The position numbers and the translations under genes are program-made. Of a stretch of 45,082 nucleotides of DNA, positions 1,579 through 36,387 are shown in pieces (positions within the stretch are counted from its first letter, which is position 1; each line of letters begins with the position of its first letter). Under the pieces are notes generated by a model, which saw only the letters and a list, made by a program, of their open reading frames with translations, did not search any database and was not told the DNA's origin. The DNA comes from Brachyspira murdochii (GTDB lineage Bacteria; Spirochaetota; JAAYUW01), in contig DYJT01000009.1 in assembly GCA_020722965.1 (NCBI GenBank), positions 28,755 through 73,836 on the forward strand, read 5' to 3'.

Positions 1579-3126
1579 CTATTTCCAAAAATTCAAGATA
1601 ATAGTAGTTCCATTATCTATCTTAGACAAAATCTCTAACTCAATTTCATATAAAATGCAGATCTCTTTTACAATTGAAAGCCCGATTCCATTAGACCATC
1701 TTTCTTCACTTTTTTTACCATTTCTTGCCTTGTAATTTTTATTAAATATCTCTGGCAATTCTTCTTTATTTACCCCAATTCCATTATCAACTATGGTGAG
1801 TGAGCATAAAAATTTTTTATCCTCCTTTCTAATATTGTTTAAAGAATAGTAAGAATAACCATTTAATATTAAGGTATTTTTTAAATTTGTAGTAAAGTCT
1901 AACCCCTTTTTATTTGAATAAAGAGTTAATTCAACTTTTTTTTCATCATTATTGTTGTGTTGAATAGAATTTTTAATAATATTTTCTGTTAAAGACCTAA
2001 AATGGTTTCTTCTAATAGGATAAAATATATTATCTTCAACATCTTTTTGAATAATTAGTTTTTCTTTATTGAATAGATATATTATTTTATCTATATAAAT
2101 CCCTATTTCCTCATTTAATGAAAGTAACGGTAATTTTTCATCTTTATTCTTATCTATTCTTGAAAATAGGTTAATCTGATCAACAAGCTCATTTATTCTT
2201 TCAATTTCTCCATCTATCTCTAATATAGTATTTATATCTGAATTAATTATGCCATCTTTAATGCCATACATATATGATTTTATTATATTAATTGGTGTAG
2301 ATATATCATGGGTAATTTGTGAAGTAACCTTTTTCCTGAATTCCTGATCCTTTTTTAATTCTGAAGATAGATAGTTGAAAGCATCTATAAGAATACCGAT
2401 CTCATCATTTCTCTTATTTTCAATATTTACATCATAATCCCCATTTGATAATTTAAAGGTACTTTTTACGAGATTTCTAATAGGTTTACTAAATTGTCTG
2501 GAAACTAAAAATATAATAGGAAACGAGATTATCAATAAAACAAAATAAAAAAGCAAGAACAATACACGTAATCTTTCTAAAAAATTTTTGACACCTTCAT
2601 GATAAAATATGATATTCATAAAAAAGATCCGCAAAGGACTTGTTCGAAAAACATATTGCTCCATATAGAATCCTGGCTTAAGTTCAGCAGGCTTAAATCT
2701 ATTAATTCCAAATCTACCTGTTTGCGTATTATTTTCATAAGTCCTTTGAGGATTTGGTGGTGGAGGTGGTGGAATATGAATAACTTCGAAATTACTTTTA
2801 TTATATGAAAAGATAAGATTTCTATTTAAAAAAATATTACATGCGATTATATATTTATTTTGATTTAAAAGATCTTGCATCTCTTTTAATAATAAAAATC
2901 TATCCTCATCCATTTCATCTATATTTTTTTGCTTATCTTCCAATATTGATTTAATTTCTTCAAGAAATTTATCTTTTTCCTTTTCAATATCTTCTGATAT
3001 AACTAAACTTATCTGTTTTTTTATTATGTTTTGTAAAAATAAGTAAGAGATAATAACTGAAATCAATATCAAAATGCTTACAGTAATAAATAATTCTAAC
3101 CAAAGATAGATTTTTTTCTTTTTCAT
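1579..3126 (-). CDS. Sensor histidine kinase with polyproline sensor region
   Basis: A membrane histidine kinase of 515 residues. Transmembrane segments lie at about 12-33 and 186-208, enclosing an extracytoplasmic domain of about 150 residues. A HAMP-like linker (about 209-262) leads to the H-box with phosphoacceptor His273 (THDISTP). The ATPase domain is complete: N-box Asn382/Asn386, G1 box DNGIG at 447-451 and G2 box NGIGLS at 479-484. The extracytoplasmic domain contains six consecutive prolines (119-124) followed by N-P, which is unusual for a sensor domain. The gene starts 5 bp after the stop of the response regulator gene, so the two form a two-component operon. The signal is unknown. 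Confidence 0.93.
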   Translation of the reverse strand: MKKKKIYLWLELFITVSILILISVIISYLFLQNIIKKQISLVISEDIEKEKDKFLEEIKSILEDKQKNIDEMDEDRFLLLKEMQDLLNQNKYIIACNIFLNRNLIFSYNKSNFEVIHIPPPPPPNPQRTYENNTQTGRFGINRFKPAELKPGFYMEQYVFRTSPLRIFFMNIIFYHEGVKNFLERLRVLFLLFYFVLLIISFPIIFLVSRQFSKPIRNLVKSTFKLSNGDYDVNIENKRNDEIGILIDAFNYLSSELKKDQEFRKKVTSQITHDISTPINIIKSYMYGIKDGIINSDINTILEIDGEIERINELVDQINLFSRIDKNKDEKLPLLSLNEEIGIYIDKIIYLFNKEKLIIQKDVEDNIFYPIRRNHFRSLTENIIKNSIQHNNNDEKKVELTLYSNKKGLDFTTNLKNTLILNGYSYYSLNNIRKEDKKFLCSLTIVDNGIGVNKEELPEIFNKNYKARNGKKSEERWSNGIGLSIVKEICILYEIELEILSKIDNGTTIILNFWK

Positions 3127-3131
3127 AAAAA

Positions 3132-3794
3132 TTATTCTGAATCGACCTTATAACCTAATCCGAAAACTGTTTTAATGTAATCTTTTTTTATTTTTTTCCT
3201 AATGTTTTTAATGTGGGTATCTATAGTTCTATCTGAAATCACCGTTCCATCTGGAGTAATTGCATCTATCAGCTGATCTCTTGTAAAAACAACCCTCGGA
3301 TTAAGTGCAAGTTTATATAGTATCTCAAATTCGGCTTTTGTAAGTTCGATTTTTTCTCCTGCCACTTTAGCTAAAAAATATTTTCTGTCTAATTCGAGGT
3401 CTTTGAATATAACTCTATCGATATCGTAATTACCGGCTCTTTTCAATATCGCTCTAACCCTTAAAACTACTTCATAAGGGGTAACAGGTTTTACAACATA
3501 ATCATCGCTTCCTAAAAGAAGTCCTTCAATTCTATCCTGATCGCTCCCTTTTGCGGTTAGCATAAGAACTGGAATATTCTTTTTCGCCTTAACTTCTTTT
3601 AATATTTCATCCCCGCTCATATCTGGCAACATTCTATCAAGTATAATGCAATCAATCTCTTCTTTAAGCGAAATTGAAATACCTTTTTGTGCATTTTCTG
3701 CCAGATAGACTTCATACCCTTCTTTCTCAAAATAAAGTTTCAAAATTTCTGCGAATTTTTGCTCATCTTCTACTATTAAAATTTTCATACTCAT
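3132..3794 (-). CDS. OmpR/PhoB-family response regulator
   Basis: A 220-residue two-domain regulator. The receiver domain (about 3-120) has the acidic pair Glu9/Asp10, phosphoacceptor Asp53, Thr80 and Lys102. The C-terminal half (about 125-218) is a winged-helix DNA-binding domain with the family-typical stretches KAEFEILYKL and VFTRDQLI and the ending VFGLGYK. It is co-transcribed with the kinase gene 5 bp downstream. A second ATG two codons in (M3) is an equally possible start; no strong ribosome binding site separates them. Regulators of this family bind direct repeats phased at about 10-11 bp, and such repeats lie in the divergent intergenic region at 3907-3946, suggesting control of tldE-tldD, of itself, or both. 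Confidence 0.95.
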   Translation of the reverse strand: MSMKILIVEDEQKFAEILKLYFEKEGYEVYLAENAQKGISISLKEEIDCIILDRMLPDMSGDEILKEVKAKKNIPVLMLTAKGSDQDRIEGLLLGSDDYVVKPVTPYEVVLRVRAILKRAGNYDIDRVIFKDLELDRKYFLAKVAGEKIELTKAEFEILYKLALNPRVVFTRDQLIDAITPDGTVISDRTIDTHIKNIRKKIKKDYIKTVFGLGYKVDSE

Positions 3795-3906
3795 ATTTTA
3801 CAATATTTCATCCTAAATTAAAAGAAGAATTTTAAAACAATAATCAAAAATTTAAAAATAAAATCTATTATCTAATTTCATAAAATCTTTGATATTTAAA
3901 TTCAAA

Positions 3907-3946
3907 TTTATGAATTATTTATGAAGATTATATGATTTTTTTATGA
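3907..3946 (+). promoter_or_regulatory. Four 11-bp-phased heptamer repeats, candidate response-regulator operator
   Basis: The heptamer TTTATGA occurs at 3907-3913, 3918-3924 and 3940-3946, with a one-base variant TATATGA at 3929-3935. The starts are spaced exactly 11 bp, one helical turn, with unrelated 4-bp spacers. This is the architecture of Pho-box-type sites bound by OmpR/PhoB regulators, and a gene for such a regulator is divergently transcribed 113 bp away. The array ends 11 bp before the -35 hexamer of the tldE promoter. Binding by the neighbour is inferred. Confidence 0.5.
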
Positions 3947-3957
3947 TTCTTAAATTA

Positions 3958-3985
3958 TTGACCTAAATTTCTAAAATGATATTTT
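3958..3985 (+). promoter_or_regulatory. Probable sigma70-type promoter for tldE-tldD
   Basis: TTGACC at 3958-3963 and TATTTT at 3980-3985 are separated by 16 bp, giving a leader of roughly 50 bases before the tldE start. The -35 matches five of six consensus bases; the -10 is weaker. Base composition makes chance matches common here, so the hexamers count mainly because they sit next to the phased repeats. Confidence 0.45.
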
Positions 3986-4045: not shown

Positions 4046-5365
4046 ATGGTTGAAAAAATTGCTCAAAAAGTATTTAATTTTTCTAAGGCGAAGCAAACAG
4101 AAATAATTTTTTACCATTCGATAGATGCCCTTACAAGATTTGGTCAAAGCCAAATTACCCAACATGTTGAATTTAATAACCAAAATATGACAATCAGAAT
4201 GCTTGATAATAAGAAAACTGCTTCAATCTCTATTTCTAGTTTTTCAGATGATGTAATTAAAAAAGCAGTTGAGCAACTATATAATATTTTAAATCTTCAG
4301 GTTCCGGATGAAAGATTATCCGAACTTCCAGAAAACATAAAATATATTGGGAACAACAATCAGAGTGATGATTTCAAGAAATTGGACGAACATACTAGAG
4401 CACAATTTGTTAAAGAGGCGACAGATTATCTTACAAAAGAATCTGCAATCTCTGCCGGTATATGCTCTCAAACCAATACAGCAATTACCCATATCACAAA
4501 TAAAAATTACTTTCATACCTATTATGATTGGAAATTTTCTTTTTCTCTAAGTGCAAAAAACAACTATGGAATTACCAGAGAAGAATTTAATGGAACATCT
4601 TTAAATAACTTCGATCCTGAAGAACTTGCAAGAAAATGTATGATTTCATTATCTTTGCTTAAAGATAAAAAAAATATTAATCCCGGCAAATATGATGTCA
4701 TTTTAACCCCTGCCGCTTTTGCCGAATTATTATTATATCTTTTTTATTTTAGTTTTTCAGCAAAAGCCTATCATGAAAAAAGAACCTTTATGCATAATAA
4801 AAAAGGTCAACAGGTTTTTTCGCCTCTTTTGAATATTATTGATAATCCAAGGCAAACTGATGGCCCTTCTTTATATTATGACTTCGAGGGAAGCCCAACA
4901 ACTAACACTAAACTTGTTGAAAATGGGGTTTGTAATAATCTTGTATCAAACAAATATTACTCCAAAGTTTTAAATATCCCCAATACCGGCAATTGTATTT
5001 CACCTACAACATTAGATTGTTACCCCCTAAGACCAGAAGTGATGCCAGGTAATAGGCCATTAAGTAAGATTATTGAAAATTCCGACAATACCCTTTTAAT
5101 AAACAGACTTCATTATCTGAACATAATAGATCCACTTTCCTTGATTGTCACTGGTATGACCAGAGATGGGGTTTTTACAATAGAAAAAGGTAAAATAACC
5201 AAAAGTACCAACAATCTAAGATTCACTGAATCCATATTAACAGCTCTTTCAAATATTGAAGAACTCTCATCAGATCTTTTTGAAGCCGAATATTTTTTAG
5301 GTTTCATAAAGGTACCTGCTGTTAAAATCAAAGGGTTTAACTTTTCTTCAGTTACAGAATTCTAA
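4046..5365 (+). CDS. tldE: TldE/PmbA-family protein, non-catalytic partner of TldD
   Basis: A 439-residue member of the TldD/PmbA family. In characterised bacteria TldE and TldD form a heterodimeric cytoplasmic protease that trims unfolded or modified peptides; TldE has no metal site and TldD carries the zinc. Consistent with this, no HExxxH motif is found here, and the matching region (around residues 225-245) is hydrophobic. The partner tldD follows after 15 bp. The start is firm: AAAAGGAG precedes the ATG at the right distance. The paralogue assignment rests on the missing metal site, the gene order and the family-like C-terminal half (LIVTGMTRDGVFTIEKG). Confidence 0.88.
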   Translation: MVEKIAQKVFNFSKAKQTEIIFYHSIDALTRFGQSQITQHVEFNNQNMTIRMLDNKKTASISISSFSDDVIKKAVEQLYNILNLQVPDERLSELPENIKYIGNNNQSDDFKKLDEHTRAQFVKEATDYLTKESAISAGICSQTNTAITHITNKNYFHTYYDWKFSFSLSAKNNYGITREEFNGTSLNNFDPEELARKCMISLSLLKDKKNINPGKYDVILTPAAFAELLLYLFYFSFSAKAYHEKRTFMHNKKGQQVFSPLLNIIDNPRQTDGPSLYYDFEGSPTTNTKLVENGVCNNLVSNKYYSKVLNIPNTGNCISPTTLDCYPLRPEVMPGNRPLSKIIENSDNTLLINRLHYLNIIDPLSLIVTGMTRDGVFTIEKGKITKSTNNLRFTESILTALSNIEELSSDLFEAEYFLGFIKVPAVKIKGFNFSSVTEF

Positions 5366-5380: not shown

Positions 5381-6829
5381 ATGTTTGATTTATGTAATAA
5401 AGTTTTAAATTATGCACAACTTTTGGGCGCTTCTTACGCCGATGTCAGATTGATTATTAGAGAAACGGAATATTTATATACAAAAAATGGGAAGCTCGAA
5501 AATTACAGTTTGAACAATGAAGAAGGTTATGGTGTTAGAGTAATTGTCGATAACGGTTGGGGCTTTGCATCCATATCTAATTTAAATAGCGACAGTATAG
5601 AGCAAACAGTTAAAAAGGCTATTTCCATTGCAAAAGCATCGAGTAAATTAAGAAAGGAACCCATAATCCTTACGAAAGAGCCGGCTTATCAAGATAGATG
5701 GTCTTCTGCTTATCTTATAGATCCTTTTACGGTTCCTTTCGAGAAAAAACTTCAAACCCTATTAGAGATAGATGAAATTCTTAGAAAAGAACCATCTGTT
5801 AAGCTTGCCGAATGCGAGATGAGATTTAGAAAAGAACATAAATATTTTGCAAATACCGAAGGTTCTAAAATACTTCAAACAACAATTGTTTCTGGCGCAG
5901 GGTATGAAGCTACTGCAATAGATGGGAATGATGTTCAAAAAAGAACATATCCTATGGCTTTTGGTGGTCAATTTATGCAAATGGGTTGGGAACTTATCGA
6001 GGGTTTAAAACTAAAGGAAAATGCTCCTAGAATTGCATCGGAAGCCGTAGCCCTTTTAAAAGCACCCGAGATTGAACCAGGGAAAAGGGACTTAATAATA
6101 GGCTCTGAACAATTGGCACTTCAAATACATGAATCATGTGGTCATCCCTCTGAACTCGATAGGGTTCTTGGTTATGAAGAAAACTACGCAGGAAGCTCTT
6201 TTATAACAGTCGATAAATACAAGAACATGCATTATGGCTCAAACATAGTAAACTTAGTCGCCGATTCAACACTACCAGGTGGTCTTGGAACCTTTGGATA
6301 CGATGATGATGGTGTAAGGGCACAGAGATACTTCATAGTAAAAAATGGATTATATCAAAATTATTTTACAAATAGAGAGTTCGCTACAATCATCGGCGAT
6401 GAAAGAAGTCATGGATGCAATAGAGCAGATCATTTTAGTTCTATACCAATAATTAGGATGATTAATCTTTCATTACTTCCTGGTGACTATGAATTAGATG
6501 ATATAATTGCCGCGACAGAAGATGGTTTATTTGTCGATGGAGTTAAAACCTGGAGTATTGATCAGATGAGGTTGAATTTCCAGTTCACCTGTGAGATTGG
6601 CTATAGAATCAAAAATGGTAAATTGGCTGAAATGGTAAAAAATCCAACATATCAGGGGATAACACCTACCTTCTGGCAGAGCTGTGATATGATAGCAAAT
6701 GAGAAATATTGGCTACCCTGTGGAGTCATTAACTGCGGTAAAGGACAGCCCGGTCAAACCATGATGATGACTCATGGTGCTGCTCCTGCAAGATTTAAAA
6801 ATGTTATGACTGGAATTGTAAGAAACTAG
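5381..6829 (+). CDS. tldD: Zinc metalloprotease TldD
   Basis: The catalytic partner of the TldE-type protein just upstream. Of 482 residues, the HExxxH zinc motif is HESCGH at 250-255 (ligands His250 and His255, catalytic Glu251). A conserved C-terminal cysteine in the INCGKGQPGQ stretch (Cys452) corresponds to the third zinc ligand known in E. coli TldD. Length agrees with the family. A strong ribosome binding site, AGGAGGG, precedes the ATG and lies in the short gap after tldE, so translation is probably coupled. Known family roles are maturation of ribosomally made peptides such as microcins and general degradation of unfolded peptides. No precursor peptide gene is obvious nearby. Confidence 0.95.
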   Translation: MFDLCNKVLNYAQLLGASYADVRLIIRETEYLYTKNGKLENYSLNNEEGYGVRVIVDNGWGFASISNLNSDSIEQTVKKAISIAKASSKLRKEPIILTKEPAYQDRWSSAYLIDPFTVPFEKKLQTLLEIDEILRKEPSVKLAECEMRFRKEHKYFANTEGSKILQTTIVSGAGYEATAIDGNDVQKRTYPMAFGGQFMQMGWELIEGLKLKENAPRIASEAVALLKAPEIEPGKRDLIIGSEQLALQIHESCGHPSELDRVLGYEENYAGSSFITVDKYKNMHYGSNIVNLVADSTLPGGLGTFGYDDDGVRAQRYFIVKNGLYQNYFTNREFATIIGDERSHGCNRADHFSSIPIIRMINLSLLPGDYELDDIIAATEDGLFVDGVKTWSIDQMRLNFQFTCEIGYRIKNGKLAEMVKNPTYQGITPTFWQSCDMIANEKYWLPCGVINCGKGQPGQTMMMTHGAAPARFKNVMTGIVRN

Positions 6830-17471: not shown

Positions 17472-18368
17472 ATGCTTAAAGTACAGACAAGATTTGAATC
17501 AAAATATCTTATTATGACCTTATTTGCACCAATTTTATGGAGTCTTGGAGGTCTGGGGGTAAGAAGTGTTTCTGTAAGCAGTTTTACGATAATTTTTGCT
17601 CGTTCTATCTCTATGAGCCTCTCTGTCTCTATACTTTGCTTGATACTTTATAAAAAAGAATTTTTTAATCTATTTAAAAAACTCAGACTGCCTGGCTTAT
17701 TAATCTCATTTTTTCTTGGTGCAACTACTTTTTTTTACATATTGTCGCTATCTAAAACAACTGTTGCAAATGCATTACTGGTTCAGGGTACCGCTCCAAT
17801 ATGGGCTGCGATATTTGCTACAGTCTTACTTAAAGAAAGATTTAAATTACCTATCTGGATAACAATTTTTACCGCTTTTTTAGGAATGGTTATCCTTGTT
17901 ATAAATAAAGACTTCGCTTTTCATCTATTAGGTGATTTTTACGCATTAATTACCGCATTCGGACTCGCTTTCCAGATTTTACTGGTGAGGAAAAACCCTG
18001 ATATCAATCTAATCCCTGCAACAATAATAGGTGGAATTTTTGCAGCATTTTTCTCTTTGTTTTTTAAACCTTCACTTTCAATTTCATTGAAAGATGGAAT
18101 AATATTACTGCTTCTTGGTACCTTTCAGATTGGACTCGGATATATATTGTTCTATAGTGGAAGCAGATATCTACCAACGACTCTTACTGGTTTAATAACC
18201 TTGCTCGAAACAATACTTGGTCCTATATGGGTATTTTTGGCTTTTGGAGAAAAAATAAGCCACAACTCTTTGGTCGGTGGAATTATTATCTTATTAAGTT
18301 TGATTATAAATACAATTTTAACTGCTAAATATGAAAAGATGAAAAAAATTTCTTATGTTACAGGATAA
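17472..18368 (+). CDS. EamA/DMT-family membrane transporter
   Basis: A 298-residue integral membrane protein with about ten hydrophobic helices arranged as two EamA repeats, typical of drug/metabolite transporters that exchange or export amino acids or related small molecules. Family stretches are A-P-I-L-W-S-L-G-G near residue 17, A-L-L-V-Q-G-T-A-P-I-W-A near 100 and, in the second half, L-L-E-T-I-L-G-P-I-W-V-F-L-A-F-G-E. The substrate cannot be told from sequence. A ribosome binding site, AGGAT, precedes the ATG. The 3' end overlaps by 11 bp the end of the decayed GAPN gene on the other strand. Confidence 0.9.
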   Translation: MLKVQTRFESKYLIMTLFAPILWSLGGLGVRSVSVSSFTIIFARSISMSLSVSILCLILYKKEFFNLFKKLRLPGLLISFFLGATTFFYILSLSKTTVANALLVQGTAPIWAAIFATVLLKERFKLPIWITIFTAFLGMVILVINKDFAFHLLGDFYALITAFGLAFQILLVRKNPDINLIPATIIGGIFAAFFSLFFKPSLSISLKDGIILLLLGTFQIGLGYILFYSGSRYLPTTLTGLITLLETILGPIWVFLAFGEKISHNSLVGGIIILLSLIINTILTAKYEKMKKISYVTG

Positions 18369-19819
18369 AATCTGTATTTAAAAAATTAGAAAGCCTTTTA
18401 TCAAGGATCTTTTCGACTATTTGTTTATTTTCATCAGAACCCTTAAAAGCCACAAGAGATCTTATACTGAAAACTCTTAAAGCATCTGAAATCGAAAGAG
18501 TTCCTTCCGCGGAATCTTTTCTTCCTGTAAATGGGAATATATCTGGGCCTCTTTGACACTGACTATTTATATTGACTCTACTAACTTGATTCATAAGCGG
18601 ATCGATTATCTTTGCGATTTTTTCTGGATCATTACTGAATATACTTGCTTGCTGCCCATAATTAGAATTAATAATATAAGATAAGGGCTTTCCAATAGAT
18701 TCAAATGTTACAATCGGAACAATTGGTCCAAATTGTTCAATATGATAAATATCCATATTTTCGTTTACATTATAAAGTATTACTGGTTTAACAAGCTGTG
18801 TATAAGTCTTATCTTCATCCGAAGGTAATAGATTTTCTAGATCATTTAAACTAATTTCCCTACCATCTATAAATGCTTTAGCACCTTTAGTTATTGCATC
18901 AGATGTAAGATGATAGATTTGAGAGGGTTTATTCTTCTCTGCAACAGGAGTTATAAAACTATTATCCCACGGTAAGCCAATCTTAATTTCTTTGACTTTT
19001 GCCAAAAACTGATTAAGAAAATCATCTGAAATTGATCTTTCAACAAAGATAATTTTTAATGCAGTACATCTTTGTCCATTGAAGGATAGAGATCCAGAAA
19101 CTATTTCTGAGATAGTAAGGTTCAACTTTGCATCTTTTAATACAATTGCTGGATTTTTGGCATCAAGGCCTAAAATAGATCTCAATCTATGAGGATAAGG
19201 ATGCTGTTTTCTTATTATATCTGAAACCTTTGATGTTCCAATAAAGGCAAGGACATCGACCTTACCACTTGAAATAACCGGGGTTATTATCTGTTTGCCA
19301 TCCCCATAAAGGACCCATGCAAAGGACTACACCAAGTGGAGATCTTCTTATCTGCGCATAAACATTATCTGCTATTATCAATCGGGAAGAGATCCTATCA
19401 AGTTCCTTTAATGCGAAAATAGTATCTTCAATATATTCAACAGTCCTTATAAATTCCTTTTCTGCATCATTCTTTGATTTTGCAATTTCCAACATCAGCA
19501 GTGTGACTATTTCATTTTGCACTTTTTTCATTGAAACAAGAAACTTTTCAATAACATTGATCCTGTCTTCAACCTTCATCGTTGGCCATATTCCATTACC
19601 ATTATCAAAGGCTTTAACTGCCGCTTCAAGAGCTTCAAGAGCATTTTCTTCATTCATTTTAGGATGATAGCCAAGATAAATCGGTTTACCATCCTGATAA
19701 ATTGGAGAAAAAATATCGACTTTATCGGATGTAAATTCACTAATCTTGCCATCTATCAAACTAGTACTTTGCTTTATTGGAAGATCTATGCCTAGATTAT
19801 AAAATTGTTCATTACTCAT
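18358..19819 (-). pseudogene. gapN: Non-phosphorylating glyceraldehyde-3-phosphate dehydrogenase, broken by internal out-of-frame deletion
   Basis: The intact enzyme would be an NADP-dependent aldehyde dehydrogenase oxidising glyceraldehyde-3-phosphate straight to 3-phosphoglycerate. The N-terminal half (19819 down to about 19310) reads well up to [11 protein letters not shown], then shifts frame and stops at 19262. In another frame the family sequence resumes at once with [11 protein letters not shown] and continues to the end, including the catalytic F-N-G-Q-R-C-T-A-L-K and N-S-Q-C-Q-R-G-P-D. Compared with the plant-like bacterial form of about 540 residues, roughly 50 codons are missing at the junction near 19308, including the cofactor-binding P-A-L-I-x-G-N segment. 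The two halves are in different frames, so no working enzyme can be made. An assembly error is the main alternative. The ribosome binding site AAGGG is still present. Confidence 0.88.
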
Positions 19820-35190: not shown

Positions 35191-36387
35191 TTATGATATT
35201 ATCAAATCTAATGAAATTGATATTGTAATAGTTTGATTCGATGTAATTGTAATAGTCTTTTCTACAACCAGACCATGGTATTCAATTCTAATAGTATAGG
35301 TACCGGGAGCCAGGGACACTTGATTATTAGCCTTAAATTGAACCATCTGATTATTTATAAATACCTTTGCATCATTTGGTATTTTAAATATTATTGTCCC
35401 ATTTGCCATGTTTAATACAAAATTAAAAACCTCATTTGGTTTAGTTACATTTATAGTCTGTGTAAGACTGTTATACCCAGGAACCATAGGATTAAGTGTT
35501 ATGGTGTATGTCCCAGGAGCTAAATTCACGGTAAGAGGGGTATTACCATAGACTTTATTATTTATCAAAACCTGAGACTGCACATTCGCATTTATAGTCA
35601 CAGAATAGTTAACCTGAGTTAATACAAAATTAAAAACCTCATTTGGTTTAGTTACATTTATAGTCTGTGTAAGACTGTTATACCCAGGAACCATAGGATT
35701 AAGTGTTATGGTGTATGTCCCAGGAGCTAAATTCACGGTAAGAGGGGTATTACCATAGACTTTATTATTTATCAAAACCTGAGACTGCACATTCGCATTT
35801 ATAGTCACAGAATAGCTTTGTGGTTGTTGATTTAAAAAGGTAAAATTCAGTTCTAATACCTGCCCTTTTTGTAAGTTTATCTTCTCACTTTTTGGTTGAT
35901 AATTCTTATCCTTTGGTACGGCTTTAATTTCATAGGCGCCAGGATACATATATATATCAAGAGGAGTCATTCCGATTTTAATATTATTTGAAAAAATATC
36001 GCATACTATATCGGCTTTGACAATCAGCCTCGCTTTACCAGATGAAGATGTCGTCGTAGTAGTTGTGGTTGTAGTGCTTGATGAAATAGGAGTTAGAGTA
36101 AAACTAAACTCTTTTGGCCCTGTTGGAGAAACGGTAATAACAGTTTCAAATGTTTTATAACCATCTGCAACCAATTTTAGTGGGTATTTACCAATATTTA
36201 AAGTTAAAGTAATAGGTGTATAACCTCTAAAGACATTGCTTAAGTATACTTTTGCTTTAACATTAGCCTTAATAGTTATGGTAGCGCTCGTTATCTGGCT
36301 TGATGCAGTTATCTGTAAAGTAAAAAGAAGTAAGACAAGGAATATAACCGCAGATAATATCATTAAATTTTTAAATTTTAAACTCAT
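35191..36387 (-). CDS. Exported protein with PEGA domains
   Basis: A 398-residue protein with an N-terminal signal or anchor (about 7-28) and five PEGA-type beta modules, each with the sequence V-x-I/L-x-x-x-x-G-x-T-P-L/I followed by a L/V-x-P-G-x-Y turn. Modules lie at about 34-100, 118-190, 193-258, 262-327 and 330-395. A run of nine threonines flanked by serines (about 104-118) links the first two. The third and fourth modules are identical over about 66 residues through a DNA duplication at 35412-35815. PEGA domains are found in envelope and surface proteins of many bacteria including spirochaetes; the ligand is unknown. A ribosome binding site, GGAGG, precedes the ATG. The gene diverges from the NHL/VWA gene and ends in a terminator. 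Confidence 0.88.
   Translation of the reverse strand: MSLKFKNLMILSAVIFLVLLLFTLQITASSQITSATITIKANVKAKVYLSNVFRGYTPITLTLNIGKYPLKLVADGYKTFETVITVSPTGPKEFSFTLTPISSSTTTTTTTTTSSSGKARLIVKADIVCDIFSNNIKIGMTPLDIYMYPGAYEIKAVPKDKNYQPKSEKINLQKGQVLELNFTFLNQQPQSYSVTINANVQSQVLINNKVYGNTPLTVNLAPGTYTITLNPMVPGYNSLTQTINVTKPNEVFNFVLTQVNYSVTINANVQSQVLINNKVYGNTPLTVNLAPGTYTITLNPMVPGYNSLTQTINVTKPNEVFNFVLNMANGTIIFKIPNDAKVFINNQMVQFKANNQVSLAPGTYTIRIEYHGLVVEKTITITSNQTITISISLDLIIS
35412..35815. repeat. Perfect 197-bp direct duplication with 207-bp period inside the PEGA gene
   Basis: 35412-35608 and 35619-35815 are identical over 197 bp, including all third codon positions. The intervening 10 bp complete a 207-bp (69-codon) unit, so the frame is kept. 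The lack of any silent change implies a very recent duplication or ongoing gene conversion. Confidence 0.95.

Follow-up and report, generated by a model that had tools for sequence, protein, structure and literature searches.

A conserved array of predicted PhoB/OmpR-type half-sites as the probable site of autoregulation for a BaeSR-like two-component system of the Exilispira lineage (Spirochaetota)

In a genome of the Exilispira lineage (Spirochaetota), the 251-bp intergenic region between a response regulator gene and a divergently transcribed tldE-like gene carries four nearly identical heptamers at a step of exactly 11 bp. This arrangement raises the questions of whether the words constitute a genuine regulatory site, and which of the two flanking genes such a site might serve. 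The array lies in a stretch of 45,082 nucleotides (hereafter the window) from a genome of 2.07 Mb (G000), of which 2.01 Mb, with 71% A+T, were read. We compared it with three further genomes of the same order, of which G001 and G002 are congeners and G003 belongs to another family. Sequence comparison argues that the array is a real, conserved and meaningful site, which most probably serves as the operator by which a BaeSR-like envelope/efflux two-component system controls its own genes.

The phased array and its direction

The words are exactly as the initial annotation had described them: on the plus strand TTTATGA occupies positions 3907-3913, 3918-3924 and 3940-3946, and TATATGA positions 3929-3935, with the spacers ATTA, AGAT and TTTT. 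The 11-bp phase was likewise confirmed, as was the 11-bp gap between the end of the array and the TTGACC (3958-3963) of the predicted tldE promoter; on the other side 112 bp separate the array from the regulator ATG (at 3794). In the minus-strand direction the four heptamers are TCATAAA (3946-3940), TCATATA (3935-3929), TCATAAA (3924-3918) and TCATAAA (3913-3907), i.e. TCATAAA-N4 units that point at the regulator gene and away from tldE. A short core repeated directly every 11 bp is the geometry of OmpR/PhoB-type operators, and we predict that the units of the array are half-sites of this type.

The genome scan proposed by the initial annotation recovered a single exact occurrence of TTTATGA-N4-TTTATGA in the 2.07-Mb genome, namely the array itself. 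With two mismatches the matches to this pattern were not above those of the reversed control, making it of no use for regulon finding. A three-unit pattern (TCAHWW-N5) matched five times across the four genomes, four of these being the array and its orthologue, and zero times in the reversed-pattern control; with one mismatch its matches were largely background. One exact three-unit match (G001:C74:39887) sits between convergent genes and was rejected as chance. The proposed comparison with shuffled sequence also favored the array, as four TCA at 11 bp never arose when the intergenic region was shuffled 3000 times with its dinucleotides preserved. In this A+T-rich genome, however, four phased, near-identical T-rich heptamers occur at a few loci at most periods; therefore the strength of the case lies in conservation and rank, phasing alone being weaker evidence.

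Table 1. Features of the window and predicted sites in the related genomes (window positions unless a contig or locus is named)
Feature	Position	Strand	Remark
Membrane sensor histidine kinase (HAMP, HisKA below cut-off, HATPase_c)	1579..3126	-	In the regulator's operon
OmpR/PhoB-family response regulator (Response_reg + Trans_reg_C)	3132..3794	-	Predicted array binder and main target
Expected regulator -10 region, TTTAAATATC	3884..3897	-	10-14 nt past last TCA; predicted location
Half-site array, four units, 11-bp step	3907..3946	-	From sequence comparison
Predicted tldE promoter core: TTGACC, 16-bp spacer, TATTTT, TGA before -10	3958..3985	+	Core conserved in G001 and G002
tldE-like gene (PmbA/TldD C-terminal domain)	4046..5365	+	Divergent neighbour
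tldD-like gene	5381..6829	+
Phased half-sites before TolC-HlyD-ABC-MacB type efflux operon	L219 8952-8995 (G000:C34); L307 1257-1278 (G002:C89)
Half-sites before small exported DUF2680-like genes	G001:C35:34109-34132; G002:C184:16461-16484; L327 1974-2017 (G003)

Conservation of the array and its association with the regulator

Both the Response_reg and Trans_reg_C domains of the regulator exceed their Pfam cut-offs, and this winged-helix protein, encoded near the array, is its presumed cognate regulator. Its score against the PhoB family is 182.8 bits (cut-off 296.2), almost equalled by that against BaeR (177.9 of 380 bits), while BaeS is the best NCBIfam match of the kinase despite a score of only 110.8 of 500 bits. 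Both proteins stay below the BaeSR and PhoB cut-offs, and our claim is therefore that the system works like these and not that it is one of them. There is hardly any gap between the kinase and regulator genes in the window or in G003, and they lie about 350 bp apart in G001 (L040/L052, G001:C89 46377-46728). Elsewhere in the window, two adjacent minus-strand ORFs (18358-19185 and 19262-19819) are possibly one broken gene of the aldehyde-dehydrogenase type, judging by eye from their translations, and an exported protein (35191-36387) has PEGA-like repeats; two of them, starting YSVTINANVQSQVLINNKVYGNTPLTVNLAPG, seem to be the same, which hints at a recent internal duplication.

The divergent order of the regulator and tldE is retained in all three congeners. 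The array of G001, the closest relative, aligns with that of the window without gaps: its four minus-strand units (TTTCATAAAAA, ATTCATTTTAA, CTTCACAATTT and TTTCAAAATTT) are spaced at exactly 11 bp and correspond to AATCATAAAAA, AATCATATAAT, CTTCATAAATA and ATTCATAAATT in the window. The two agree at every one of the 12 TCA bases and at 20 of the remaining 32 positions (probability of such a split 0.011). At the corresponding position G002 has the units TTTCAAAACTT, CTTCATAATTT and CTTTATAAGTT. The initial annotation had proposed loss of the phasing in relatives keeping both genes as evidence against the site; the array survives in G001 and in a degenerate form in G002. In G003 the regulator-kinase pair (contig C16) and tldE (contig C23) are unlinked, and the units ATTTATAAAAA, ATTCATAAATT and TTTCAATTCTA are found ahead of the regulator. 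The regulator arrays of G002 and G003 are weaker, with two TCA and a TTA each; these three-unit arrangements were reached by 0 and 1 of 1000 shuffles respectively, and solely in the regulator-ward orientation. When a matrix was built from the units of G001, G002 and G003, to the exclusion of all window data, the array of the window ranked first in 2.01 Mb with a score of 28.9, versus 22.6 for the runner-up.

Thus, each of the four genomes, including the one with the unlinked regulator, has an array ahead of the regulator gene, degenerate in G002 and G003, as an autoregulatory operator would, and by this comparison it follows the regulator when the gene neighbourhood changes. The recognition helix of the regulator is nearly invariant among the four genomes, as expected because a shared site would require it. 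The orientation of the half-sites, the array at the unlinked regulator of G003 and the further arrays described below together lead us to assign the site to the gene lying downstream in the direction of TCA, here the regulator. The window offers only a weak match to a regulator -10 (TTAAAT or TAAATA); about one turn past the last half-site the hexamer is also weak in G002 and G003, whereas G001 has TATAAT 10 nt past the last TCA.

The predicted tldE promoter is itself conserved, with the core TTGACY-N16-TATNNT and a TGN before the -10 present in all three congeners. Its distance from the array is variable, with the -35 lying 11 bp away in G000, 16 bp in G001 and 55 bp in G002. The change from 11 to 16 bp amounts to half a helical turn, and an activator fixed to one face of the DNA would not easily tolerate such changes. 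In G003 the regulator has the better array, and the region upstream of tldE offers no more than a background-rank match, so that the array does not follow tldE. That match (L068 3748-3780, minus strand; GTTCATTTAAT, TTTGAAAAATT and TTTCAAAATTA) is weak, is phased and points at tldE, whose start is 236 bp away; it ranks with the background in a 208-kb sample, yet when the region was shuffled 1000 times only 6 of the shuffles reached it. Outside the genus, none of the other 78 of 80 TldE loci links TldE to this regulator.

A predicted regulon and its parallels in known systems

We searched the four genomes with a pattern comprising a half-site pair and its downstream extension (CTTCAYAAWTWNTTCAYAAWTTTG, up to three mismatches), which gave 17 matches versus 11 for the reversed control; single matches are hence near background. 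The informative ones lie at the regulators of G000 (0 mismatches), G002 (2) and G001 (3), and at G002 tolC (1), G001 C35 (2) and G002 C184 (3). In G000 a matrix from G001 alone places the second-best four-unit site 65 bp upstream of a TolC-like gene, the first of an operon with genes for an HlyD-family protein, an ABC ATPase and a MacB/FtsX protein; the remaining matrix matches of this genome are inside genes, of low complexity or in contig-end repeats. The G002 orthologue of this TolC (43% identical) has CTTCATAAATT and TTCCACAAATT upstream; no orthologue was found in G001 (89% complete) or G003. The C35 and C184 sites are followed, after 34 and 33 bp, by genes for small exported proteins with a weak match to DUF2680, below the Pfam cut-off. 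These proteins are orthologues (50% identical), which was recognised only after the sites, and only then was the orthologue in G003 examined. It has TTTCAAAAAAT, ATTTTTAATTT, ATTCACATTTT and CTTCAAAACTT 59 bp upstream of a slightly trimmed start. This array scores 27.3, and in a 211-kb sample of the G003 genome the runner-up reaches 17.8; no orthologue of the exported protein was found in G000. On the basis of these sites the small exported proteins are probable members of the regulon, and we would guess that they are feedback proteins akin to Spy/CpxP. Twenty-four selected units give the consensus NTTCATAAWTT, in which position 5 is always A and position 4 is C in 22 of them; since they were picked with TCA in mind, the consensus describes the site rather than tests it.

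The recurrence of the array, seen in the sequence together with its phase, orientation and conservation, is consistent with a mechanism in which positive autoregulation of the regulator-kinase operon is the most likely mode. Phosphorylated dimers of the array-adjoining regulator would bind head-to-tail on the four 11-bp half-sites, as read on the minus strand, and RNA polymerase would be recruited to a -10 lying roughly one turn of the helix past the last of them. This would raise the synthesis of regulator and kinase and, through the same half-sites, that of a small regulon, namely the TolC-HlyD-MacAB-type efflux operon and the exported DUF2680-like protein, in a BaeSR-like envelope/efflux response, the signal being likewise presumed.

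The closest parallel in site architecture is the phoB promoter of E. coli (TTTTCATAAATCTGTCATAAATCTGACGCATAAT), which PhoB autoactivates via half-sites built on TGTCA (PMC6194859). Like the array, its Pho box has TCATAAA words with an 11-bp step directed at the regulator gene; its -10 hexamer (CATAAT) lies 11 nt past the last TCA, comparable to the TATAAT of G001. The array differs in having four half-sites versus the usual two, and in TTTCA, where a T replaces the G before TCA; moreover, the regulator is not a PhoB by its family score. BaeSR, the core E. coli regulon of which comprises spy, mdtA and acrD (PMC3160322), offers a functional parallel in that here too the predicted targets comprise an efflux operon together with a small exported protein, the kinase matches BaeS best and the BaeR score of the regulator is near its PhoB score. 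Unlike BaeSR, the proteins score far under the family cut-offs, the pump is of the MacAB type and not RND, the exported protein is DUF2680-like and not Spy, and the site resembles a Pho box. KdpE, of the same regulator family, binds AT-rich direct repeats with the same 11-bp step (TTTATA-N5-TTTACA; PMC3264566), and the plus-strand TTTATGA resembles TTTATA; however, the conserved bases of the array are those of the minus-strand TCA. A KdpE-like plus-strand reading was rejected, as the relatives keep TCA and not TTTA, and units such as TTCACAA and TTCAAAA do not fit TTTA(T/C)A.

Alternative readings and implications

The initial annotation had proposed that an envelope-sensing two-component system controls the TldDE protease through the array. 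Its view of the array as an OmpR/PhoB-type direct repeat tied to the divergent envelope-type regulator has been strengthened by the conservation and recurrence of the units. Control of tldE-tldD by the array, whether as their activator site alone or as a divergent operator shared with the regulator, is possible, given that the array is immediately upstream of a well-formed and conserved promoter and that all three congeners share the divergent order, but we consider it unlikely. The half-sites point away from tldE, the -35 distance shifts, and where the genes are unlinked the array is with the regulator; together with the other arrays these observations leave the attractive claim of TldDE control unsupported, and we correct it here. 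Among the listed titles and abstract openings of papers that name both TldDE and two-component systems, nothing deals with such control. A bidirectional array, via which the system would activate both itself and TldDE from the same four half-sites and so add TldDE to an envelope/efflux stress regulon of this spirochaete lineage with the MacAB-TolC-type pump and the exported protein, appears quite unlikely.

It is also distinctly unlikely that the array is a site of autorepression or the target of another OmpR-family regulator of the genome. The sequence by itself does not give the sign of control, and E. coli phoB also has a repressing pair of half-sites near its -10 (PMC6194859), but the -10-like hexamers seen one turn past the last half-site (TATAAT at the G001 regulator, TATCAT at G000 tolC and TATTAT at G002 tolC) suit activation. 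G000 does encode two more OmpR-type regulators, each about 40% identical to the array-adjoining one; their loci are without a comparable array, and under the changed neighbourhood of G003 the array stays with the array-adjoining regulator. AT-rich repeats near the helical repeat, immediately upstream of a -35, might instead be phased A/T tracts serving as a curved segment or UP element of the tldE promoter with no specific protein. This seems very improbable, as it is the TCA that is kept while the A/T positions drift, the spacing to the -35 varies, and the units recur before other genes with their orientation retained. Low-complexity phased heptamers elsewhere in the genome might suggest a chance repeat in AT-rich intergenic DNA, a negligible prospect that the conservation at 11 bp in G001 has already refuted, in line with the uniqueness of the array in the genome, its first rank with the relatives-only matrix and the outcome of the shuffles.

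The autoregulatory operator that we favor is ordinary in kind, as it belongs to an autoregulated two-component system, and new as an instance. With it, what was an anonymous repeat becomes a binding motif open to testing (NTTCATAAWTT, one unit every 11 bp), and a two-component system so far uncharacterised, from a branch of the spirochaetes that has received little study, gains a predicted regulon of three targets whose outputs would be an efflux pump and an exported protein. The presence of a Pho-box-like word in so distant a phylum suggests that the site grammar of the OmpR/PhoB regulator family changes little.
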